Shown: piece after piece, positions 4,415 to 60,614 of the stretch
How positions within the stretch are numbered: the first letter of the stretch is position 1
How the letters are laid out: the number at the start of each line of letters is the position of its first letter
DNA from: Halorhabdus sp. CBA1104
GTDB lineage: Archaea > Halobacteriota > Halobacteria > Halobacteriales > Haloarculaceae
DNA: 64,000 bases
Assembly (NCBI RefSeq): GCF_009690625.1
Contig: NZ_CP033878.1
Location: forward strand, 1,240,001 to 1,304,000
Direction: 5' to 3'
Made by a program: the position numbers and the translations under genes
Notes under the pieces: generated by a model
Database searches by the model: none
What the model saw: only the letters and a program-made list of their open reading frames with translations
What the model was told of the DNA's origin: nothing

Positions 4415-5590
4415 CTACTCGGCGAGTGAAACTGGATACTCGGTCAGGTTTTCGGCCCCGTCCTCGGTCACGACGAGAAAGTCTTCGATACGGACACCGC
4501 CCACATCGGGGTCGTACAGCCCCGGTTCGATCGTGATGACGTGGCCGGGTTCGAGTTCGCCGCCGCCCGGACCGATAGTCGGCTGTTCGTGGACGGCGAG
4601 GCCGACGCCGTGACCGGTCGTGTGAATGAAGCCGGTCTCGGTGCTCCCGTCGCTGCGGAGCGTCGGCAGGCCCGCGTCCTCGTAGATATCACACACGACG
4701 TCGTGGACGTCCTCGCCGGTGACACCCGGTTCGACTGCATCGATAGCCGCCTGTCTGGCCTCGTCAGTCAGGTCGAACCACTCCCGGATCGTCTCACTTG
4801 GCTCACCGACGAGGAACGTCCGCGTCATGTCGGCGTGGTACTGGGTCGCCTTGTCCTGGGGGAAGATATCGACGATGATCGGCTCGTCGGCCCGGAGTGG
4901 TCCACTCCCACGATCGTGTGGGTCGGCGGCATCCTCGCCACAGGCGACGATCGTCTCGTCGAGTGCACAGCCGTTCCGGAGCAACGTGACTTCGATTTCC
5001 TCGCTGACGCGTTCGCTCGTCAGCACGTCGCCGTCGACCAGGAGGCGTCCCTCGTCGTCGACTGACGCCCCGCGAATGAGTTCCTCGGCGGCAGCCATCG
5101 CCTGCTCGTTGGCCCGCTGGGCGGTCCTGACGTGTTCGATCTCCGTCTCGGCCTTCCTCGCCCGGACAGATTCGATCACGTTGTCGTAGTCGACGGTGAC
5201 GGTAACGCCCTGCTCGCGGAGGCCATCGGCCGCCCCGGTCGGGAACCGCGGTGGGACAGCGAGGGATTCGACGCCGTGCTCGGCGAGGAAGGCCGCACGG
5301 ACGCGATCGACAGCCTCGCGCCGGTCGTACTCCTCGCGCAATCGATCGTAGTCGTAGTCGACGTATCGCTCGACGGTTGCGGCGTCGGATTCCCGTTTGG
5401 CTCGTCCGTATTCGAGACTCCGGGGGAAAAACAGATGGACGTCACCGGCATACAGCGTCACAAACGGGTCGGGAGCACCGAATCCCGAGAGGTACTGCTG
5501 GTTCGGGTCGGTGCCATCGGCGTCTAGCAGATACCCGTCGGCCTCCAACTCGGCGAGTCGGGCCTCCAGTTGGGAGAAGTCTTTCTCCAT
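4415..5590 (-). CDS. pepQ: M24 family metallopeptidase (Xaa-Pro dipeptidase-like)
   Basis: A 391-residue M24 'pita-bread' peptidase with a creatinase-like N-terminal domain (about residues 1-140) and a C-terminal catalytic domain. The five dinuclear-metal ligands are visible: Asp in IIVDIF (about 239), Asp in YHADMT, His in TTGHGVG (about 327), Glu in TIEPGLY (about 355) and Glu in VRIEDF (about 370). It should cleave Xaa-Pro or similar short peptides in the cytoplasm. The ATG at 5590 (MEKDFSQ) is preferred. The frame runs further up to 5641, but that extension encodes a repeated ATAVG peptide made by a 24-bp tandem repeat and is unlikely to be translated. Confidence 0.85.
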
Positions 5591-5600
5591 GCCACCGCAT

Positions 5601-5648
5601 CCGACTGCGGTGGCCAAAGGCGTACCGACTGCGGTGGCCAACGGCGTG
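5601..5648. repeat. Two-copy 24-bp tandem repeat upstream of the peptidase gene
   Basis: Two adjacent 24-bp units, each beginning CCGACTGCGGTGGCCAA, differ at two positions. They lie just upstream of the M24 peptidase start and downstream of the tetR stop side. The unit length is a multiple of three, so the peptidase frame stays open through it. Confidence 0.7.
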
Positions 5649-5665
5649 CGACGGCAGCCGGCAAG

Positions 5666-6271
5666 CTACCCTTCGGCAAGCAGTCGAGATTCGACGTAGG
5701 CCTCGGCTTCTGCTCGCAGCGTCGAGAGATCGACAGCGGCCGTCGACCGGTGGGTCATCGCGCCGGTGATCGTCGCGTGCAACATCGTCGCCACGGCCTC
5801 TGGATCGACGTCCCGAAAGGTCCCATCCTCGACCCCCTCGCGAACGATCGCAGCGAGCCGATCCCGGAAGAACGCGTCGTGTTCGCTGAACTGTTCCTGA
5901 TAGGCAGGGTCGGTCGTCGCCTGGGCGCGCAATCCCAGCATCGTCCGCCGGAACGCGGCGGCCTCCGGGTCGTCGTCGGGCGAGAATACGCGGTCGAAGA
6001 GTACCTGCAAGCGGGCCTCGGGACCGAGATCACTGTCGATCCCGAGGTCAGCCTCGGCGTGTTCGAGGAGGTAGGACAGAAAGTCCAACAGGAGTTCGTC
6101 CTTGCCGTCGTAGTGATGGTAGACCAGCGACGTACTCTTGGGGAAGTGTTCACCGATGCGTTCGATCGTCACGTCCGCGTATCCGTGTTCGCGCAGCGCC
6201 CCGTAGGTCGCTTGCAAGATCTCGATACGAGTCTCCTCGGGCGCGTCCGGAAAGAGATGATCGGGTGCCAT
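5666..6271 (-). CDS. TetR/AcrR family transcriptional repressor
   Basis: A 201-residue protein with the N-terminal TetR helix-turn-helix: ADVTIERIGEHFPKS followed by TSLVYHHYDGKDELL (about residues 33-62). The variable C-terminal domain would bind an inducer. The ATG at 6271 (MAPDHLF) starts the conserved part; the open frame upstream to 6391 is rich in Arg and Ser and unlikely to be coding. It is divergent from an ABC-2 exporter operon with a palindrome in the shared promoter region, the usual arrangement for a TetR protein controlling its neighbouring drug or lipid exporter and itself. Confidence 0.88.
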   Translation of the reverse strand: MAPDHLFPDAPEETRIEILQATYGALREHGYADVTIERIGEHFPKSTSLVYHHYDGKDELLLDFLSYLLEHAEADLGIDSDLGPEARLQVLFDRVFSPDDDPEAAAFRRTMLGLRAQATTDPAYQEQFSEHDAFFRDRLAAIVREGVEDGTFRDVDPEAVATMLHATITGAMTHRSTAAVDLSTLRAEAEAYVESRLLAEG

Positions 6272-6599
6272 TCCGTTAGTTCCACCCTGACACTCCGCCC
6301 TCGAAGACGTCACGGTTCGGTGTGGGCACAGCCGCGGGCAAGCGGGCGAAAATTCCGACTGTTCTCTCGGCAGCCGAGACCGCCTCGCCATCTTGGCTAC
6401 GTGTGTCCCACTGGACCGTGACCACCCGGTCGAGCGGTGTTTTGTCGACGCCTGAATCGGCTGTCACCGTGGCCCTACGTGGGACCCTCTGGTTGCCGTC
6501 GCTATGCATACGACCGCGAAAGAGCCGAAGGACCAAAACGGTGTTGAGTAAATATTCAATCAACAAATTTTAGTCTGCGTCGCTGCGACGATCAGAGCG
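6272..6599. other. Divergent intergenic region, tetR / ABC exporter
   Basis: These 328 bases contain no convincing gene; the open frames on both strands have shadow-like composition. The right end becomes AT-rich (6543-6573) and carries the candidate operator and a TATA-like AAATTTTA at about 6565-6572, placing a transcription start close to the ATG at 6600. Confidence 0.5.
6544..6559. promoter_or_regulatory. Candidate TetR operator
   Basis: TTGAGTAAATATTCAA is an imperfect 16-bp palindrome (arms TTGA/TCAA, with inner TA/TA also symmetric). It ends a few bases before the TATA-like element of the ABC operon, where a bound repressor would block the basal transcription factors. Assignment to the adjacent TetR protein is inferred from position. 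Confidence 0.45.
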
Positions 6600-7664: not shown

Positions 7665-8521
7665 GTACTGATACGGTCGGCGACGAAGAAGTCGTCCGGA
7701 CGTCGAATACGTTTCTGCGGGACATCTGGACGAACTTCATGCGCTGGAATATCAACGCGATCCGCAACCCCTTCGTGGTAGTCTCCTCGCTCGTCCAGCC
7801 GATCATCTTCCTCGTCCTCTTTACCCAGATCTTCGGGAACGTCGTCACGGGAACGCTACCTGGCGGAATCAGTTACGAGTCCTATCTCGTTCCGGCCATC
7901 GCCGTCCAGATCGCACTCATCGTGGCCTCCTCGTCGGGAATCGGGCTCGTTGATGACATCGAGAGCGGCGTCTTCCAGAAGACGCTGGTCACGCCGATGA
8001 ACCGGGTCGCCATCTTCCTCGGGAAGACCCTCTCTGAACTGATCCGGATCGTCATCCAGGTCGTCATCATCCTGGTGTTGGGCGTCATTCTGGGCGCGGA
8101 GGTCGCCACCGGCCTGCCCGGGGCGCTGGCGATCATCGGGATTGCGATCCTCTTTGCACTGTGGTTCCTGGCGTTTTCGAACGTCGTCGCGCTCATCACG
8201 CGCGACCAGGAGTCGACGATCATCGCCGCCAACATGGTTCAGTTGCCGCTGTTGTTCGTCTCCAGTGCCTTCCTCCCGGTGAGTTCGATGCCGGGGTGGG
8301 TCCAGACGGTCGCGACGTACAACCCGATCACCTACGGCGTCGACGCCGCACGGGCACTCATGCTCGATGCCGACGTCATGGAAGTGCTCGATATCACTGC
8401 CTTCGGTGGAATCTGGAACACGATCGTCCCCGCACTGGCGGTGCTGGTCGTCCTCGACGTGATTCTGGGCGCAATCGCCGTCTACATGATCAATCGGGCC
8501 TCCAGTGCGAGCGTCCAGTGA
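7661..8521 (+). CDS. ABC-2 type transporter permease
   Basis: A 286-residue membrane protein with about six helices: one near residues 45-65, then a cluster from about 75 to 205, and a last one near 255-280. The LPLLFVSSAFLPVSSMPGW segment before the fifth or sixth helix is the conserved re-entrant region of the ABC-2 family. Its ATG overlaps the stop of the ATPase gene by 4 nt, indicating translational coupling. It forms the membrane part of the exporter. Confidence 0.92.
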   Translation: MSTDTVGDEEVVRTSNTFLRDIWTNFMRWNINAIRNPFVVVSSLVQPIIFLVLFTQIFGNVVTGTLPGGISYESYLVPAIAVQIALIVASSSGIGLVDDIESGVFQKTLVTPMNRVAIFLGKTLSELIRIVIQVVIILVLGVILGAEVATGLPGALAIIGIAILFALWFLAFSNVVALITRDQESTIIAANMVQLPLLFVSSAFLPVSSMPGWVQTVATYNPITYGVDAARALMLDADVMEVLDITAFGGIWNTIVPALAVLVVLDVILGAIAVYMINRASSASVQ

Positions 8522-8533
8522 TCTCGAGGCGGC

Positions 8534-11260
8534 CTAGACGAGATCGACGTCGGTAAACTCGAAGCGCGCGCCGCCGTCTTCGCTCTCGGTCACGGTGACA
8601 GCCCAGTCGTGGGCGTCGGCGATCCGTTCGACGATCGTCAGCCCGAATCCGGTCCCCTCCGCTGTCGTGGTGTACCCTGGCTCGAAGACAGCTGTCCGTT
8701 CGTCTTCGGGGATACCAGGGCCATCGTCGGCGACGTAAAACCCGCGATCACCGATTCGTCCGATAGCGATCGTCACATCCGCTGGTGGCGCCGATTCGTC
8801 GGCGGTCGAAACCGTCCGCTCTCCGGTTGCGTGCTCGACCGCGTTGCCAAAGAGATTCTCGAAAACGTGGCGAACGCGATCGGGGTCGCCCCGGATCCGA
8901 AACTCCTCGGCAATATCGATCGACACCGCCTCGGTATCGATCATCTCCGCACACTGCTGGGCGACAGCCGGCACGGCCACGGCTTCAGTTTCCCCGACAG
9001 TGTCGCCTTGCCGGGCGAGAGTCAGCGTGTTGTCGACGATATCACCCATGCGTTCGAGAGCGTCGATCAACGGACGGGTGTGTTCGCTCTCACACGCCTC
9101 ATCGAGCAGCGTTGCCCGTCCGGTCGCGACGTTCAGCGGGTTCCGAAGATCGTGGGCGACGACTTCCGCAAACTCGTCTAAGCGTTCGTTGTGACGTTCC
9201 AGTTCCTGTTCGTACTCTCGTAAGACGGTGACGTCGGTGACCGTCCCGACGACACGCGGCGCATCTCCGTCGTCCAACACTTCGGCCTGCTCGCGGACCC
9301 AGATCCGTTCGTCGTCCGGTTCGACCGGGTACGTGAGATCGTAGCTAGCTTCCTCGTCGATCGCACGCTGGATGGTGTCTTTGACCCGCTCGCGGTGGCC
9401 CGGCGGAATGATCTCGAAGAAGGTATCGAACACCGGCTTGGCCGTCGTCGAGTCGATCCCAAAGACGTCCTCGAAGGTCGGGTAGCGCCGGATCGCCTCG
9501 TCTTCAGGGTGCCAGTCGAACGTATAGGCGTTTGTCGTCTCCAAGGCGAGTTCGAGTTGCTCGCGTACTGACTGGAGTCGGTCGTTGGTTCGCTGTAGCT
9601 CGCGTTCGCGTTCGATCGTGTCGGTGACGTCCCGATAGAGCCAGAGATTCCCCACGCCGTCTGGCAACGAGAACGGGACGTAGCTCCGAGAGAGGGTTCG
9701 ACCGTCTGCCATTTCGACGTGTTCGTTCAGTACCGGTTGTCTTCTAGCCAAAATCTCCTCGAGACGGTCGCGGAATCCGTCCGCGTCCGCGATATCGTCA
9801 CTGACGTCGGCCGCGAGCGCCATACAGTCGGTACCGACGAGTTCCTCACAGTCGGCAGAGAAATCGAAGATCTCACAGAGTTTCGGGTTCGCGGCCATGA
9901 TCTCCCGGTCAGGGTCCTCGACGAGGATGCCAAACGGGAGGTTCTCGAGTAACGTCGAGAGGAGCCTGTTGGTCTCGAGTAACTCCTGGTCGCGCTCGAC
10001 GACCGTCGTAATATCGTTGAATGTCGTGACAAAACGGTCTCCATCGAGTGGGAACGCCGAAATTGCGTAGTGTGCCTCAAGCGATTCCGCGTAGTGATCG
10101 AATCGGACCGGTTCGCCCTCGCGGACGACCTGCGCGTAGCGGTCGATGAACGTCGGATCGAGGTCCGGTAAGACGTCTGTGGCACGCTCGCCGACGATCG
10201 CCGCTCGTTCGAGCCCGGTCGTGTGCTCGAAGGCCTCGTTGACGTCCAGAAAGACGTAATCGACCGGCTGGCCGTTCTCGTCGGTCCGGAGTTCGTGGAC
10301 GGCGATCGCGTTGATGGACTCCTCGAAGAGCTGCCGATAGCGACGCTCTCGTTCGATACGATGGAGCGCGTGTCCGATGTCCCCGCCGAGTTCGCCCAAT
10401 AAGTCCATCTCCGTCTCGTCGAAGGGGGTCGGGTCGGTGCTGTAAACGTTCAACACGCCGTACTGCTCGTCCTCGAAGGACAGTGGCACGGCCGCACTCG
10501 ATCGAAACCCACGGTCGAGGGCTGCCTCCCGCCAAGGGGCAAACGCCTCGTCGTCGGCGATCGATTGGGTCACAACGAGGTCGTTTTCCCGGAGCGCCTG
10601 GACGGTCGGCCCACCTGCACTCGCCCCGTCTTCGAGCGTAATCGTGATCTCCGATGTGTAGTTCTGGCCGTCTCCCGCGCTCGCTCGTGGCCGAACGATA
10701 CCCTCGTCTGTATCCCGCTGGCCGATCCAGGCGAACTCGTAGGGCGCCCCGCTGGCGACGACCGCACACACTCGCTGTTCGAGATCCGATCGGGTTCGCG
10801 AGCGGACCAACTCCTGATTGACGTCACGGACAGTCTTGCGGATGCGATCGAGCGTGGCCGCGCGCTTGCTGGCCCGATACTGCTCGACGGCGTTCTCGAT
10901 CCGGTTGCGGAGAACAGTATACTGTGCCGGGCCCCCGGATTTCTCCAGATAATCAGTCACACCCGCCGAGATGGCCTCGCTGGCAACGTCTTCCGATCCT
11001 CGAGCAGTATAGAGGATAAATGGAAGGTCCGGATACTCGCTGCGGACCGCATCGAGGAGTTCGAGCCCGTCTCGCCCGGGCATTTCGTAATCACTCACGA
11101 CACATTCGAATTGTTGGTTCCGAAGCATCGCAAGCGCGTTCGACCCACGTGATGCGGTCTCGACGATGAGTCGATCGCTCTCGGCATCGAGCATGGTCGC
11201 GGTCAGCTCGAGAAAGTCCGGGTCGTCGTCGACGTGAAGCACCCGAATCGACTCACGCAT
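8534..11260 (-). CDS. Hybrid sensor: receiver-GAF-PAS-PAS-PAS-histidine kinase
   Basis: A 908-residue soluble signalling protein. An N-terminal receiver domain (about 1-120) has the phospho-acceptor Asp57 in VVSDYEMPG. A GAF domain (about 140-300) is followed by three PAS-type domains (about 310-420, 430-550 and 560-685), then a HisKA domain with His703 in VAHDLRNPL and an HATPase domain (NLFGNAVEHA, DDGPGIPEDE, GTGFGLTIVER). There are no membrane segments, so it senses a cytoplasmic cue, perhaps redox or light through GAF/PAS. The receiver at the N terminus suggests it sits inside a phosphorelay. No partner regulator is encoded beside it. Confidence 0.9.
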   Translation of the reverse strand: MRESIRVLHVDDDPDFLELTATMLDAESDRLIVETASRGSNALAMLRNQQFECVVSDYEMPGRDGLELLDAVRSEYPDLPFILYTARGSEDVASEAISAGVTDYLEKSGGPAQYTVLRNRIENAVEQYRASKRAATLDRIRKTVRDVNQELVRSRTRSDLEQRVCAVVASGAPYEFAWIGQRDTDEGIVRPRASAGDGQNYTSEITITLEDGASAGGPTVQALRENDLVVTQSIADDEAFAPWREAALDRGFRSSAAVPLSFEDEQYGVLNVYSTDPTPFDETEMDLLGELGGDIGHALHRIERERRYRQLFEESINAIAVHELRTDENGQPVDYVFLDVNEAFEHTTGLERAAIVGERATDVLPDLDPTFIDRYAQVVREGEPVRFDHYAESLEAHYAISAFPLDGDRFVTTFNDITTVVERDQELLETNRLLSTLLENLPFGILVEDPDREIMAANPKLCEIFDFSADCEELVGTDCMALAADVSDDIADADGFRDRLEEILARRQPVLNEHVEMADGRTLSRSYVPFSLPDGVGNLWLYRDVTDTIERERELQRTNDRLQSVREQLELALETTNAYTFDWHPEDEAIRRYPTFEDVFGIDSTTAKPVFDTFFEIIPPGHRERVKDTIQRAIDEEASYDLTYPVEPDDERIWVREQAEVLDDGDAPRVVGTVTDVTVLREYEQELERHNERLDEFAEVVAHDLRNPLNVATGRATLLDEACESEHTRPLIDALERMGDIVDNTLTLARQGDTVGETEAVAVPAVAQQCAEMIDTEAVSIDIAEEFRIRGDPDRVRHVFENLFGNAVEHATGERTVSTADESAPPADVTIAIGRIGDRGFYVADDGPGIPEDERTAVFEPGYTTTAEGTGFGLTIVERIADAHDWAVTVTESEDGGARFEFTDVDLV

Positions 11261-11412
11261 GTGCTGATATCGAACGGTTCAGCGGAAAAATGTATGGTGA
11301 AATGTCACACGTCAAACGCCACGGGGTCGTCAAGCACATCTCCGGACAGATGGCCACGATCTAGCTGGGGTGCACCGGTACCCTCATGTCGCCCCCTCCC
11401 GATCACTCGCGC

Positions 11413-12699
11413 ATGGATGTCCACGTTTCCCAGTCGACGGTCGACGGGACAGTACAGGCACCGCCGTCGAAGAGTTATACGCACCGTGCAATCCTCGCCG
11501 CGGGGTACGCCGACGGTGCAACCGTTCGAGATCCGCTCGTCAGCGCCGACACGGAGGCGACGATGGGGGCTGTCGAGGCCTACGGCGGCAGCGTCGATCG
11601 CGGTGACGGCACCCTCGAAATCACCGGTTTCGATGGGAAACCGTCGGTACCCGATGATATCGTCACGTGTGCAAACAGCGGCACGACGATGCGCCTGGTG
11701 ACAGCCACGGCCGCCCTCGCCGACGGGATCACGGTCCTGACGGGGGATGACTCGCTCAGATCGCGCCCGCAGGGGCCGCTACTGGACGGGATCGAACAGC
11801 TCGATGGGCGCGCAGAGAGCACGCGTGGGAACGGCCAGGCCCCACTCGTCGTGAAGGGGCCTGTCGACGGCGGGGAAGTGTCGATCCCCGGGGACGTCTC
11901 CTCGCAGTATATCACAGCGCTGCTGATGGCCGGTGCCGTCACCGACGACGGCATCGAGATCGATCTGGAGACCGAATTGAAATCCGCACCGTACGTCGAC
12001 ATCACGATCGAGGTTCTGGCGGCGTTCGGCGTCGAGACAGTATCGACGGCTGAGGGATTCGAAGTCGAGGGCGGTCAGACGTACGATCCTGCGGGCGGCG
12101 AGTACGCTGTCCCGGGGGACTTCTCCTCGATGTCTTATCTCTTGGCAGCGGGCGCCCTCGCCGCACCGGACGGGCTGACGGTCACGAGCGCCCACCCGAG
12201 CGCACAGGGTGACTCAGCGATCGTGGACGTGCTCGAACGCATGGGGGCCGACATCGAGTGGGACCGTGAGGCAGGCGAGATTACCGTCGAGCAGTCCGAT
12301 CTGACGGGCATCGAAGTCAGCGTCGCGGACACGCCCGACCTCCTGCCGACGATCGCGGTCCTCGGTGCAGTTGCCGAGGGCGACACACGGATCGTCGACT
12401 GCGAACACGTCCGCTTCAAGGAGACCGACCGCGTTCGCGCGATGGCCGAGGAACTCGGTGCGATGGGGGCGAACGTCACCGAACAGCAGGACGTGCTGAC
12501 GATCCACGGCGGCGACACCGAACTCTCGGGTGCGAACGTAGACGGACGGGCCGACCACCGGATCGTGATGTCCCTGGCGATCGCCGGGCTGGTTGCCGAC
12601 GGCGAGACGACCGTCCGGGGTGGCGAACACGTCGACGTGTCGTTCCCGAATTTCTTCGACGTTCTGGACTCGATGGGCGGGCGCGTCCGCCAGGAGTGA
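11413..12699 (+). CDS. aroA: 3-phosphoshikimate 1-carboxyvinyltransferase (EPSP synthase)
   Basis: A 428-residue enzyme of the shikimate pathway that joins phosphoenolpyruvate to shikimate 3-phosphate. Diagnostic features are [15 protein letters not shown] near the N terminus, [10 protein letters not shown] (phosphoenolpyruvate binding), [24 protein letters not shown] and [15 protein letters not shown]. Length is normal for the family. The ATG at 11413 gives the canonical MDVHVSQ start; an ATG 27 nt upstream would add nine residues not seen in the family. It is followed at 50 nt by a membrane-protein gene on the same strand. Confidence 0.95.
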
Positions 12700-54760: not shown

Positions 54761-56170
54761 ATGCGCATCCACTGGCATCGACGCGACCTCCGGATCGAGG
54801 ACAACCCGGCCCTGGCTTCGGGCGGCGCCGACACAACAGAGCCAGTACTACCGGTGTTCGTGCTCGATTCGGCCGTCCTCGAGCACGCTGGACCGCCCCG
54901 CGTGGCGTTCATGCTGGAGGCACTCGAGGCCCTCCGGTCGGCCTACCGCTCGCTCGACAGTGATCTGCTCGTCGTCCAGGGCAATCCAGTCGAGACGCTC
55001 CCCGAAATCGCGACAAAGCGGGACGCGACCACGGTCACCTGGAACCGTGATTACTCCGGGTTGGCTCGCGAACGGGACACCGCCGTCAGGCAGGCACTGG
55101 AAGACGCCGGAATCGACCGAGACGCCGACCACGGGGCAGTCCTTCAGGAGCCGGGCTCGATCCGCACCAACGACGGCGACCCCTACTCGGTGTTTACGTA
55201 CTTCGGGCGCAAGTGGCACGACCGCCCGAAAGACGAGCCGGTCGACCCGCCCACGAGTGACGATCTCGTCAGTATCGAGACCGACTCGTCGATCCCGACA
55301 CTGGCCGACCTCGACATCGAACAGCCGACCGCGACGATCCCGGAAGCGAGTACCACGGCCGCCCACGACCGGCTCGAAGCGTTCTGCGAGGCGGACATCT
55401 ACCGGTACGAGGAGCGTCGGGACTACCCTGCCGATGACTGTACATCACGGCTCTCAGCGCACCTGAAGTGGGGAACGATCGGCATCCGGACGGTCTACGA
55501 AGCGACCGAACGGGCACTGGAGGCGGCCACCACAGACGCCGAACGCGAGTCTGTCGAAGAGTTCCAATCGCAACTCGCCTGGCGCGAATTTTACGCCCAA
55601 GTACTGTGGTTCAACCCTGAGGTCGTCGAAGAGAACTACAAATCCTACGAGCAGCCGATCGAATGGCGGGCGGACCCGGCGGCACTTGCTGCCTGGAAAG
55701 CAGGCGAGACCGGCTATCCGATCGTCGACGCTGGAATGCGCCAGCTCCAAGCGGAGGCGTACATGCACAATCGCGTGCGGATGATCGTCGCTGCGTTCCT
55801 GACAAAAGATCTGCTGATCGACTGGCGAGAGGGTTATGAGTGGTTCCGGCAGCGCCTGGTCGATCACGACACGGCAAACGACAACGGCGGCTGGCAGTGG
55901 GCGGCCTCGACCGGGACCGACGCCCAACCGTACTTCCGGATCTTCAACCCGATGACCCAGGGCGAACGCTACGATCCAGACGGCGAGTACATCCGCGAGT
56001 ACGTGCCGGAACTGGAGGGAGTCCCGGCGGATGTCATTCACAGCTGGCACGAACTCGATCAAGGAGCCAGGGAGATGCACGCGCCCGAGTATCCCGCTCC
56101 GATCGTCGATCACAGCGAGCGCCGCGAGCAAGCACTCGCGATGTTCGAGCGGGCACGGGGAGAAGAATAG
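54761..56170 (+). CDS. phr: Deoxyribodipyrimidine photolyase
   Basis: A 469-residue cryptochrome/photolyase family DNA repair enzyme. The N-terminal antenna domain (IHWHRRDLRIEDNPAL) and the C-terminal FAD domain (WREFYAQVLW, GYPIVDAGMRQLQAEAYMHNRVRM, NDNGGWQWAASTGTDAQPYF) are complete. It repairs UV-induced pyrimidine dimers using light. It is the class I (CPD) form by length and motifs. Confidence 0.94.
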   Translation: MRIHWHRRDLRIEDNPALASGGADTTEPVLPVFVLDSAVLEHAGPPRVAFMLEALEALRSAYRSLDSDLLVVQGNPVETLPEIATKRDATTVTWNRDYSGLARERDTAVRQALEDAGIDRDADHGAVLQEPGSIRTNDGDPYSVFTYFGRKWHDRPKDEPVDPPTSDDLVSIETDSSIPTLADLDIEQPTATIPEASTTAAHDRLEAFCEADIYRYEERRDYPADDCTSRLSAHLKWGTIGIRTVYEATERALEAATTDAERESVEEFQSQLAWREFYAQVLWFNPEVVEENYKSYEQPIEWRADPAALAAWKAGETGYPIVDAGMRQLQAEAYMHNRVRMIVAAFLTKDLLIDWREGYEWFRQRLVDHDTANDNGGWQWAASTGTDAQPYFRIFNPMTQGERYDPDGEYIREYVPELEGVPADVIHSWHELDQGAREMHAPEYPAPIVDHSERREQALAMFERARGEE

Positions 56171-56307
56171 CCGAGTCGTCAGGGAAACACGTTAGCCGGC
56201 CACCTCACCAAGCTTCTAGGGAGTGTCGATCCGTATCCAGTGTCTGCTTGGCGATTGATAAGGGAGAGCCTCACCGACTTTTGGTAATTGATACCGTGGA
56301 AAGCGGT

Positions 56308-56313
56308 TTTATA
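56308..56313 (+). promoter_or_regulatory. TATA-like element that fixes the start of the three-gene operon
   Basis: TTTATA lies 28 nt before the in-frame GTG at 56338. That GTG is the first codon of a 544-residue protein, so the operon probably begins with a leaderless mRNA. Other in-frame GTG codons at 56296 and 56326 would lie on or just after the TATA element. Confidence 0.5.
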
Positions 56314-56337
56314 CTGCTGGACACGGTGCACAGACGT

Positions 56338-57972
56338 GTGAGAATCCGAACTGGTATCTTCGCAGACGGATCACCGATCAACGAACAGCGGGAGGGAGCG
56401 CTCGTCGTCGCGGACGCCGTCGCCGATCCGATACGTGAGCACCTGGACGACGTACGGACCCGGGTACGGTACGCGGCCCTCGGCGCGGGGATGAGTGTCG
56501 TTCTCGCACTCGGCGTCGCCTACGCGATCGAACTGCTCGCAGGTATCGCTGTGGGTATCGTCGGCGTCGGTGTTGGGGCAGGATACGCGTATCTCTCTAT
56601 CGAATCCGAGCCCAACGTCTCGGTCGTTCAGGCCGAGAAACGTTACTGGACCGGGCACGTGGTCCCACAGCCTGACGGTGCGCTGGTCTACGACGCGACC
56701 GGATCAGTCGTGCCAACTGAACTTGAAGTCGAACAGTTCGAGGACCTCGCCGGACTCGAATCGAGTACCGCGTCCTTCGGGGCAAATACCGAGTTCCCGA
56801 TCGTCCAGGATACGAACCACGACGTCGAAAATACGGTCCAGCAGCGACTCGAGACGATGCGGTCACGAGTCGAAGCCGCCGAGACCGTCAGTTTCGAGGC
56901 CCCACTCGCCGATACATCTGGTTCGGTCCTCGAGAATGTCACGGCGATTCCGGACGAAGGGATCGGGACGGATGTGCCATCTACTGCTGTGGAGTTCGAG
57001 CTCGAAACGGCGACCGAGCAGGCCGAGCAAATGCAGACAATGGAAACGATGGCCTTCGAGACTGACCCTGACGAAACGTTGCAAGCGGTCAAAGACGAAA
57101 GTGAAACCGTCGTCGAGTCGCTCACGACGGCCAAAGCGGACGCAATCAGGCGACTGAATGACCACGTCGATGTCGCCAGTGACATCACCTCGATGACGAG
57201 TTATAACTTCTATTGTCCGGACTGCATCGAGGATGACGTGTACGCCGAGCTAGATGTAGAATTCGACGGGGGCGAACCAACCTGGTTCTGTGAGACGTGC
57301 CGTGGACGGTTCGATGCCGACGACGAGCCGGTGCCCAAACACCGCATGAAAGACGAACTCGTCGAGGAGATTTGGGACCGCCTGTGGATCGAAAAGGACG
57401 ACGAACGACGGCGGATCTACGAGAACATCGAGGACCAGAAGTCCGATCTCACCGAACGTGAATTCGAACAACGACAGGAGGCCATCCGGACAGCCTGGGA
57501 TCGGATCAAGGAAGTCCGATCGAAGATTCGCGATCTCGAAACGGAAGCCAAGGCCGAACGAGGAGCGATCACGGAGATCGGCGCCGTCATGACCAAATAC
57601 GATCGGCTCGCCGCCGAGCGACGGGAAGCGTTCGAGGCGGACGTAGAAGCGGCTCTGACGGAGATCGAGACCGCCACGGAGGAGGCGATCGACGAGATGC
57701 GCAATTACGAGGAAGAGAAAATCGAAGAGGCCCAGGAGGAGGCCCAAGAGCGCGCCGAAGTGATCAGAGCCGAGGAGCGCAAACGGCACCAAGAGAAGAT
57801 GGCCAAACTCGAAAGCATCGAAGAAGTAAGCCAGGAACGGCTCGACCACGAGGAGGAAGTTCACCAGCGCGAGGTCCTTCTCGAGACCCGTGGGGGAACG
57901 AGCGCATCCGGGCTAGTCAACAAGTATCACCTCGCGAAAGGGAAGCTGTTCGGCTATTCGAAGGAGGACTGA
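56338..57972 (+). CDS. Two-helix membrane protein with zinc ribbon and coiled coil
   Basis: A 544-residue protein without a named family. Two adjacent membrane helices (about 44-88) are preceded by a cytoplasmic or external N-terminal 40 residues. A region of mixed sheet follows, then a zinc ribbon with C293-x2-C296 and C318-x2-C321 (FYCPDC, FCETC), then a coiled coil from about 335 to 515 rich in Glu, Lys and Arg. It starts a tight three-gene operon: the next ATG is 3 nt after its stop. The structure suggests a membrane-anchored scaffold that binds nucleic acid or protein through the zinc ribbon; this is inference. Upstream frames overlapping phr are not used. Confidence 0.75.
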   Translation: MRIRTGIFADGSPINEQREGALVVADAVADPIREHLDDVRTRVRYAALGAGMSVVLALGVAYAIELLAGIAVGIVGVGVGAGYAYLSIESEPNVSVVQAEKRYWTGHVVPQPDGALVYDATGSVVPTELEVEQFEDLAGLESSTASFGANTEFPIVQDTNHDVENTVQQRLETMRSRVEAAETVSFEAPLADTSGSVLENVTAIPDEGIGTDVPSTAVEFELETATEQAEQMQTMETMAFETDPDETLQAVKDESETVVESLTTAKADAIRRLNDHVDVASDITSMTSYNFYCPDCIEDDVYAELDVEFDGGEPTWFCETCRGRFDADDEPVPKHRMKDELVEEIWDRLWIEKDDERRRIYENIEDQKSDLTEREFEQRQEAIRTAWDRIKEVRSKIRDLETEAKAERGAITEIGAVMTKYDRLAAERREAFEADVEAALTEIETATEEAIDEMRNYEEEKIEEAQEEAQERAEVIRAEERKRHQEKMAKLESIEEVSQERLDHEEEVHQREVLLETRGGTSASGLVNKYHLAKGKLFGYSKED

Positions 57973-57974
57973 CA

Positions 57975-58919
57975 ATGGCAAACGACGACCTACACCCGCT
58001 CTTGCGGGACATCCAGCGAAAGATCGTCAGTGTCCGTGAGGACCTCAAGACGATCATCGGTAAGATCGAAGGGGTGCAGGAAACGATCCAGGACGGCGTC
58101 GACAAGGTTCTAGAGGCGATCAACGACAACATTCAGGCCCAGGCGGAACTGAAACTGATGGACAAAGTCGCGAGCGTCAGGTCAATCCCGGCCCATATCG
58201 AGGCAGAGCGCGAGCAAGTCGAGGCCGAAAAGAAAGAACTCGAAGAGAAACTCGACCGCATCGACGATCGGTACGCACAGCGCCATCAAGAACTCAACGA
58301 GAAAGCCGACGACCGCATCCGAGAACTCGGCGACCATATCTTCGAGATTCAGGAAGACGAGTACGAAGACCAGATCGAACAGCCGTTCCACGAGCACGTG
58401 ACCGAGACCTGGCGCCAAATGCGACGAGACAACGCCGAGATCGGAAAAGAGCACATCGAGGCCTTAGAGAGTGAACTGGACGCGACCCATGAGTCGATCG
58501 ACGACCTGCTAGAGCGACGCGACCGGTTCCTCACGGAGATCCGGCAGAGTCGTGTCCCGGCAGGCGAGCATGTCGAGTCGCCGTATCGAGTGCAAGTACC
58601 ATTCTGGACAGTTACCGTCGAACAAGACGGGGAACGCTACCAGCATGTCTACGCGCCGGCAGATCTGACCCGTCAAAGCGACGCGTGGTATCCAGTCGGC
58701 CTGCGTGAGCGAGAGGGCCTTGCCCCACTGGTTCGGACAGTCGCGGACGCCTCGGACGCTGAGACGACATCGAAGACAATCCGGAGCGACGCGATCGGGG
58801 CAACTGTTCGCCAGTACGCGACGGGCGACGTCGCAGGGCAGATCGACTTCGCTGATACGCTTGAGGACACACTCGGTGAAAGCATCCCGATTGCTGTCGA
58901 AGGTGGTGATCAGACGTGA
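57975..58919 (+). CDS. Coiled-coil protein of the three-gene operon
   Basis: A 314-residue soluble protein. Residues 10-70 and 60-180 form coiled coils (DLKTIIGKIEGVQETIQDGV, EREQVEAEKKELEEKLDRID, LDATHESIDDLLERRDRFLT). The C-terminal 120 residues are a compact domain with a conserved-looking YRVQVPFWTVTVEQDGERY and VYAPADL. No catalytic motif is visible. The ATG is 3 nt after the preceding stop and its stop overlaps the next start (GTGA), so the three proteins are probably made together and act in one complex. Confidence 0.75.
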   Translation: MANDDLHPLLRDIQRKIVSVREDLKTIIGKIEGVQETIQDGVDKVLEAINDNIQAQAELKLMDKVASVRSIPAHIEAEREQVEAEKKELEEKLDRIDDRYAQRHQELNEKADDRIRELGDHIFEIQEDEYEDQIEQPFHEHVTETWRQMRRDNAEIGKEHIEALESELDATHESIDDLLERRDRFLTEIRQSRVPAGEHVESPYRVQVPFWTVTVEQDGERYQHVYAPADLTRQSDAWYPVGLREREGLAPLVRTVADASDAETTSKTIRSDAIGATVRQYATGDVAGQIDFADTLEDTLGESIPIAVEGGDQT

Positions 58920-59731
58920 GCAAAATCGAAGAAACCCGAGCCATCGTCGACGAGGCAGAGACATATGAAGGGGCGGTGATTCCGACTGGCCAGGCCGAGA
59001 TTGAGCGGCCGGTCACGATCCACGAAGACGCGACCGTCACAGATGGTGTCTATGGCCAGGCGGTAACCATCGAACCCGGCGCGACTATTGACGGTCCGGT
59101 CATGGCAAAGGAAGGCGTCGAAGTCGACGATGGGTCCGTCAACGGCGACGTGGGAACGCCCGGAAGTGTCTCGATCGAGTCAGGGGTCGTCAGCGGGACG
59201 GTGATGGGATCTCGGCTGCGGTTGGTGGATACAACGGTCGTCGGGAACGTCGTCGCGAGCGAAGCCATCCTCGAAAACTGTACGGTAATCGGGACGGTCG
59301 TCGGCGAACAGCGCCTCCGGATGGAATCGACGACCTGCTATACGTTCAAGTCCTACATCGACAGCACGTTCGAAGATGTCAACGTGCTGCTCCCGCAAGC
59401 GATTGTCGACGGGTCGTTCTCGGTGGAGTCACCGATAGAGGTCCGATCCATCCGGCGGAAAGACCAGTTCGTCGACGACAACGAGGCTGTGCCAATCCTG
59501 ACCGAAGACGATGCGCGGACGGTAGATGGAACCACGTATCTCACGCTGGTCCCCCGGTTGCTTGATGTCGAAGCCGTCGAGACGCGGATCGACCAGCTGG
59601 AATCGTTCCTCAGGGCGGTCGCACTCGCCCAAGACGCCGGGACCACGGTCGATCCGCCTGCCGAGAGCGAATGGGTGCTCGATGCTTTTGACGTGACTGC
59701 CGAAGCGTTGGACTTCTCGACACCCACCTGA
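58916..59731 (+). CDS. Bactofilin-like beta-solenoid protein
   Basis: A 271-residue protein. Residues 10-150 have the repeating short-strand pattern of a polymer-forming cytoskeletal (bactofilin) solenoid: GAVIPTGQAEIERPVTIHED, GAVTIEPGATIDGPVMAKEG, GSVNGDVGT, GNVVASEAILENCTVIGTVVG. Bactofilins and the halofilins of haloarchaea form filaments that set cell shape. The C-terminal part (about 175-271) is a helical acidic domain not found in simple bactofilins. The start is a GTG overlapping the upstream stop by 4 nt. Confidence 0.78.
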   Translation: MSKIEETRAIVDEAETYEGAVIPTGQAEIERPVTIHEDATVTDGVYGQAVTIEPGATIDGPVMAKEGVEVDDGSVNGDVGTPGSVSIESGVVSGTVMGSRLRLVDTTVVGNVVASEAILENCTVIGTVVGEQRLRMESTTCYTFKSYIDSTFEDVNVLLPQAIVDGSFSVESPIEVRSIRRKDQFVDDNEAVPILTEDDARTVDGTTYLTLVPRLLDVEAVETRIDQLESFLRAVALAQDAGTTVDPPAESEWVLDAFDVTAEALDFSTPT

Positions 59732-59821
59732 GCGATAATCGTATCGCCGTCTTTGCCTCTATGTGGTACGTTACCGAATGGTTCCTCAAGCTTTAACAGA
59801 CATCCGACCGTCATCAAATTT

Positions 59822-59826
59822 GGAGG
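59822..59826 (+). promoter_or_regulatory. Shine-Dalgarno site of superoxide dismutase
   Basis: GGAGG lies 8 nt before the ATG at 59835. With a TATA-like CTTTAAC at 59791-59797, the mRNA would have a short leader of about 10-15 nt carrying this site. This sets the start at 59835 rather than the in-frame ATG at 59763 (which precedes the promoter). Confidence 0.55.
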
Positions 59827-59834
59827 AATATCAC

Positions 59835-60446
59835 ATGCCAGAACGTTCCAATCCCGAATTGCCGCCCCTGCCCTACGAGTACGATGCCCTCGAGCCCCAC
59901 ATTTCAGAGCAGGTCCTCGAGTGGCACCACGATACCCACCATCAAGGCTACGTCAACGGCCTCGACAGTGCCGAGGCGACCCTCGAAGAGAACCGCGCCG
60001 CAGGCGATCATTCGACGACTGGTGGTGCGCTGAGTAACGTCACGCACAACGGCTCGGGCCACTACCTACACACGCTGTTCTGGGAGAACATGTCCCCGAA
60101 CGGCGGCGGCGAGCCCGACGGCGACCTCCGGGCACGTATCGAGGAGGACTTTGGCTCCTACGACGCCTGGAAGGCCGAATTCGAGGCCGCTGCGGGCGCT
60201 GCCGGTGGCTGGGCACTACTCGTATACGATCCTGTCGCCAAGCAACTCCGCAACGTCGCGGTCGACAAACACGACAACGGTGCGCTGTGGGGCTCCCATC
60301 CGATCATGGCCCTTGACGTCTGGGAGCACTCTTACTACTACGACTACGGCCCCGATCGCGGGAGCTTTATCGATGCCTTCTTCGAGGTCGTCAACTGGGA
60401 GAAAGTCGCCGAAGAGTACCAGAAGTCCGTCGAGCACTTCGAGTAG
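59835..60446 (+). CDS. sod: Superoxide dismutase (Mn/Fe family)
   Basis: A 203-residue enzyme that dismutates superoxide in the cytoplasm. Metal ligands are in EWHHDTHHQGY (His), HYLHTLFWENM (His) and DVWEHSYYYDYG (Asp and His). LPPLPYEYDALEP is the usual N terminus of the family. The Gly-rich loop (NGGGEPDGD) is typical of haloarchaeal Mn enzymes. The start at 59835 is preceded by a clear ribosome binding site, so this gene is leadered, unlike most here. Confidence 0.95.
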   Translation: MPERSNPELPPLPYEYDALEPHISEQVLEWHHDTHHQGYVNGLDSAEATLEENRAAGDHSTTGGALSNVTHNGSGHYLHTLFWENMSPNGGGEPDGDLRARIEEDFGSYDAWKAEFEAAAGAAGGWALLVYDPVAKQLRNVAVDKHDNGALWGSHPIMALDVWEHSYYYDYGPDRGSFIDAFFEVVNWEKVAEEYQKSVEHFE

Positions 60447-60614
60447 CGACGCGCGAGCAGTTTTCTGACGGTCGGGGCAATCTCGACGTAGATCGCGTCA
60501 CTCTCACAGACAGGAAAGTTTTAGCGAGTCGTTCGCTGGATCCGTCGACTCGCTTGGCTCGATGCAGGCGAGCGTTTCGAGGGACTTACCCCGAGAGAGT
60601 GGGTACGCAGGGCT

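Follow-up and report, generated by a model that had tools for sequence, protein, structure and literature searches.

A horizontally acquired three-gene cassette of Halorhabdus that may encode a membrane-tethered, bactofilin-like scaffold

Introduction

Cytoskeletal and membrane-shaping genes are usually seen as inherited housekeeping. Bactofilins (PF04519) polymerize without nucleotides, and those with solved structures form a right-handed, three-sided helix. The halofilins A and B of Haloferax volcanii work where the membrane is curved and influence the shape of the cell (PMC12186497). Another system to be considered here is the archaeal ESCRT, whose Main-type loci are described as containing Vps4, ESCRT-III, arCOG09748 (a coiled coil with a winged helix), arCOG08177, and kinases, the latter being typical of the Main clade (Makarova et al., 2024; PMC10936438).

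In this work we describe a compact set of three genes from Halorhabdus sp. CBA1104, the genome of which is a single 2.63-Mb contig (NZ_CP033878.1). The set lies within a stretch of 64,000 nucleotides (contig positions 1,240,001–1,304,000), hereafter the window, to which coordinates refer unless another locus is named. The third protein resembles bactofilins in its beta-solenoid core, its flanking tail, and a weak but repeated profile match, and differs from them in staying under the family cut-off, in having no confident Foldseek match in the PDB, and in its long helical tail and the constant company of two coiled-coil partners. The halofilins HalA and HalB, compared here by description alone, share with it the character of archaeal bactofilin-type proteins, although within the order only 14 of 293 genomes carry the trio. 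As for archaeal ESCRT (Main and Meth_adaptin types; PMC10936438), the trio of some carriers is linked to genes for a Vps4-like ATPase, coiled-coil proteins, and kinases, and the combination of zinc ribbon and coiled coil is also found in an ESCRT-linked SPFH protein; however, the trio has no recognizable ESCRT core protein and the module is absent from most carriers.

Results and Discussion

Organization of the cassette

The features of the locus are the following:

56170..59791, no strand: inserted segment comprising cassette and putative promoter, delimited by the empty site in relatives and lower in GC content than most of the upstream flank
56307..56314, + strand: TATA-like TTTTATAC, preceding the GTG of gene 1 by about 27 nt; putative promoter, from sequence only
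56338..57972, + strand: gene 1, GTG start, TGA stop, 544 aa
57975..58919, + strand: gene 2, ATG start, TGA stop, 314 aa
58916..59731, + strand: gene 3, GTG start, TGA stop, 271 aa

A preliminary description of this DNA had pointed to three tightly packed genes behind one TATA-like element. Re-reading the sequence gave the same coordinates, with a 2-nt gap between genes 1 and 2, a GTGA overlap between genes 2 and 3, and TTTTATAC at a position that would fit a leaderless haloarchaeal promoter of the cassette. The GTG start codon of gene 1 is supported by its relatives, which start at the same conserved Met-Arg.

The anatomy predicted earlier for the first two proteins was borne out as well. Gene 1 has a single hydrophobic region (residues 43–88), modeled with low confidence as a two-helix hairpin, then a small alpha/beta region (about 106–190) and helices that precede a four-Cys zinc ribbon (C293, C296, C318, and C321, invariant in 17 sequences), and finally a coiled coil (about 339–517) that the low-confidence model resolves into two long helices, 339–407 and 411–517. 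Much of this coiled coil is invariant (e.g., L349, W350, E352, K353, E365, D366, and Q367), which suggests a specific interface rather than just a spacer. Gene 2 combines a coiled coil (about 1–195) with a C-terminal globular domain (about 205–310). Neither protein has a named family in Pfam or profile searches, nor does the C-terminal domain of gene 2 have known relatives. Comparison with solved structures gave no meaningful match for gene 2 and nothing meaningful for gene 1, whose best match was a designed repeat protein and whose structure model (pTM 0.21) is too poor for a fold search.

Conservation and horizontal movement

Joint conservation of the three genes had been set beforehand as a test of the preliminary description. 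When the 293 genomes of the order were searched with gene 3, 14 of them proved to be strong carriers; a gene 1 profile search recovered exactly the same 14, and gene 2 sits between the other two genes in all of them. Three more carriers appeared among named genomes (Natronorubrum thiooxidans, Halorarius halobius, and Halorientalis marina), and the set is also present in G310, which belongs to a different class of the same phylum. Scanning genome contigs with the gene 1 profile found eight haloarchaeal loci; a scan with gene 3 alone gave no match. Identities to the proteins of the window are about 30–48% among the relatives. Since the gene order is kept in 18 genomes, the trio is a genuine unit, beyond what chance would produce.

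The cassette is also a horizontally acquired insertion in this genome and moves as a whole. It takes up some 3.6 kb, with a photolyase gene on one side and a superoxide dismutase gene on the other; in five other Halorhabdus genomes these two genes are adjacent and the cassette is absent from between them. In locus L153 the flanks align with window positions 54857–56169 and 59792–60470, with about 144 bp between both blocks. The inserted segment has a GC content of 0.58–0.61, compared to 0.64–0.69 in most of the upstream flank. Terminal repeats were sought at the insertion ends and none were found. Carriers are scattered over five families. In the trees of genes 1 and 2, which have their main groups in common, the cassette of the window branches deep and apart from that of L027, a member of the same genus; resolution is poor in the gene 3 tree. 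An integrase-like gene is found near the cassette in L025, and broken or partial copies occur, namely a duplicate of the gene 3 C-terminus in L037 and gene 1 fragments in G051. An origin in viruses or plasmids was considered and rejected, as the search of viral contigs and plasmids retrieved no relatives.

Regarding the partial copies, the C-terminal third of gene 3 is repeated, nearly identical, at 8143–8430 of L037 (genome G023), beside an ATP-grasp-like gene; the full cassette of this genome is about 150 kb away. In G051 (loci L024, L055, and L086) two frames make up the broken gene 1, and another piece of this gene, interrupted by stops, is found in a separate region rich in kinase, transposase-like, and ESCRT-type genes.

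The gene 3 solenoid

A solenoid in the structure prediction of gene 3 was the second test put forward at the outset. AlphaFold2 predicts a beta-solenoid at about residues 33–176, with pLDDT >90 over most of it, followed by a small strand pair and then a helical tail (218–241). The bactofilin-like nature claimed for this protein held only in part: the solenoid core is there and a weak PF04519 match is seen in 13 of 14 gene 3 proteins, but the match stays below the Pfam cut-off in every cassette tested. For the protein of the window it reaches 27.6 bits (E = 3.5e-6) against a cut-off of 27.9, and for those of the other cassettes 19–25 bits, whereas other haloarchaeal proteins pass the cut-off in the same comparison. 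This genome has a separate PF04519 protein at 1466760, and a profile comparison of gene 3 with a haloarchaeal bactofilin group gave 87% probability over 113 columns. Foldseek returned no PDB match at E <0.1, the weak top matches being mostly parallel beta-helices of the pectate-lyase or tailspike type, and the sequence also matches left-handed hexapeptide families weakly. Gene 3 is bactofilin-like in design and no clean bactofilin.

Genes next to the cassette

In 11 of 17 haloarchaeal loci, a gene immediately up- or downstream of the cassette encodes a membrane protein that has a disordered linker and HEAT repeats at its C-terminus. Its size had raised the suspicion of a transposon protein, an identity rejected by the sequence itself, which is that of a membrane protein with a HEAT tail. 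Three other loci lack the HEAT protein and have instead, after gene 3, an 81-aa two-helix membrane protein:

L031, 8168-8413: 81-aa two-helix membrane protein, follows gene 3
L025, 10415-10660: 81-aa two-helix membrane protein, follows gene 3
L108, 11463-11708: 81-aa two-helix membrane protein, follows gene 3

This replacement suggests that the membrane subunits are exchangeable. Halonotius aquaticus (L028) has a HEAT-type membrane gene on each side of the cassette (5434–6528 and 10157–11416). Neither of the two kinds of gene adjoins the cassette in the window, and a HEAT orthologue elsewhere in this genome was discarded, as only generic HEAT matches were obtained.

A different set of neighbors links some cassettes to Vps4/ESCRT-type genes, which lie within about 12 kb of the trio in G109, in the same-genus genome G268, and in G310. 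Upstream of the trio, G310 encodes an AAA ATPase, a protein kinase, a coiled-coil protein, and two helical proteins, one small and the other of 664 aa; near the cassette in G109 and G268 are a kinase, a zinc-ribbon SPFH-like protein, and the AAA ATPase and coiled-coil protein shared with G310. This composition matches that described for Main-type archaeal ESCRT loci (PMC10936438), with single proteins putatively assigned by gene order and architecture. Pfam detected no MIT or Snf7 domain in the putative ESCRT-type neighbors and gave no match for the candidate ESCRT-III protein of the relatives. Two further carriers, G051 and G168, have the module in the same genome as the cassette, and among the genomes tested full-length Vps4-like proteins were found only in these five.

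The association is uneven. Four of the 14 carriers have the ESCRT-type coiled-coil marker, compared to 6 of the 279 remaining genomes (Fisher p 6e-4, uncorrected for kinship). Considering all 18 carriers, five have the module and 13 do not, and four of those five fall in one cassette subclade. The tie between cassette and ESCRT is thus seen in one subclade and the outgroup G310 and is not general, and ESCRT as an obligatory partner was rejected. The genome studied here (G000) has no Vps4-type ATPase, its best AAA match (a 799-aa frame with two AAA matches) scoring 258 bits compared to 520–631 bits in the module genomes, nor a match at 1e-15 for an arCOG09748-like coiled-coil protein. Neither the module nor the fourth gene is obligatory, given that the former is absent from this genome and the latter from beside its cassette.

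Proposed function and alternatives

We propose that this horizontally moving three-gene cassette makes a membrane-tethered cytoplasmic scaffold, bactofilin-like, that organizes a patch of membrane, a reading to which we give about even chances. Gene 1 would anchor the structure by its two-helix hairpin, with zinc ribbon and long coiled coil facing the cytoplasm. Gene 2 would be its coiled-coil partner in a putative complex, and gene 3 probably stacks, by way of its solenoid ends and helical tail, into a filament or sheet, so that the trio together might stiffen or mark the membrane patch. We infer that in most relatives this scaffold could serve as a docking platform for the HEAT-repeat membrane protein, and in some of them for the kinase and Vps4/ESCRT-type remodeling proteins. 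The membrane-tethered scaffold with no enzyme that the preliminary description suggested agrees well with the anatomy; Pfam and profile searches found no enzyme domain in the trio. Our analysis adds the horizontal insertion, the usual fourth membrane component, and the kinase and Vps4/ESCRT-type companions in some lineages. A bolder version, in which the transferable trio and its exchangeable fourth subunit are a new archaeal cytoskeletal system, a membrane-anchored lattice of solenoids and coiled coils that can be coupled to ESCRT-type scission, is rather doubtful. If true, a cytoskeletal trio would give some archaea a removable membrane-shaping module. A compact gene set of membrane-shaping type that moves between species, with a clean insertion site in one of them and ESCRT-type neighbors in others, contrasts with the housekeeping view of such genes; the trio adds candidate partners to archaeal ESCRT systems, and the tie in some relatives makes the unit worth testing.

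The genomic neighborhoods could also be read in another way, the cassette being an accessory module of Main-type archaeal ESCRT, an adaptor that places or regulates ESCRT-III/Vps4 in vesicle formation or cargo sorting and is left orphan where ESCRT was lost. In its favor, the cassette of G109, G268, and G310 is linked to genes for Vps4-like, coiled-coil (arCOG09748-like by architecture), and kinase proteins, that of G051 and G168 shares its genome with the module, and ESCRT loci of the Main clade typically include kinases (PMC10936438). We consider it unlikely, however, with 13 of the 18 carriers, the genome of the window included, living without the module and the main text of the archaeal ESCRT survey making no mention of such genes (PMC10936438).

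The pattern of acquisition bears on another reading, a defence or stress cassette whose coiled coils and zinc ribbon would detect an invader or damage to the membrane. Defence cassettes typically show patchy transfer, and for this reason the reading is retained; the patchy distribution, the horizontal insertion between housekeeping genes, the integrase-like gene in L025, and the decayed copies in some genomes would all fit. Yet the trio has no nuclease, toxin, or NTPase domain and no matches in viral contigs or plasmids, and PADLOC matches are weak and confined to coiled coils, which makes such a role decidedly improbable; a defence system as such was rejected on these weak PADLOC matches and equally weak PHROG ones, limited to the coiled coils of genes 1 and 2. 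Finally, gene 1 runs from a membrane hairpin through a small domain into a long coiled coil rich in Ala and Glu, a succession that recalls SPFH/flotillin proteins, and an SPFH-like zinc-ribbon protein lies near the cassette in L026, so the trio might be a sorting or quality-control platform that organizes membrane microdomains rather than a filament. Gene 1 has no SPFH match in Pfam and its predicted structure is too poor for folds to be compared, and we regard this last reading as very improbable. The bactofilin-like scaffold described above is the interpretation we favor.

The SPFH-like protein of L026 (15149–16912) is an observation in its own right. It has 587 aa, a zinc ribbon at each end, and a weak match to SPFH (Band 7), and its gene is located between the cassette and the Vps4-like gene, which makes it a possible ESCRT-linked SPFH protein in haloarchaea.
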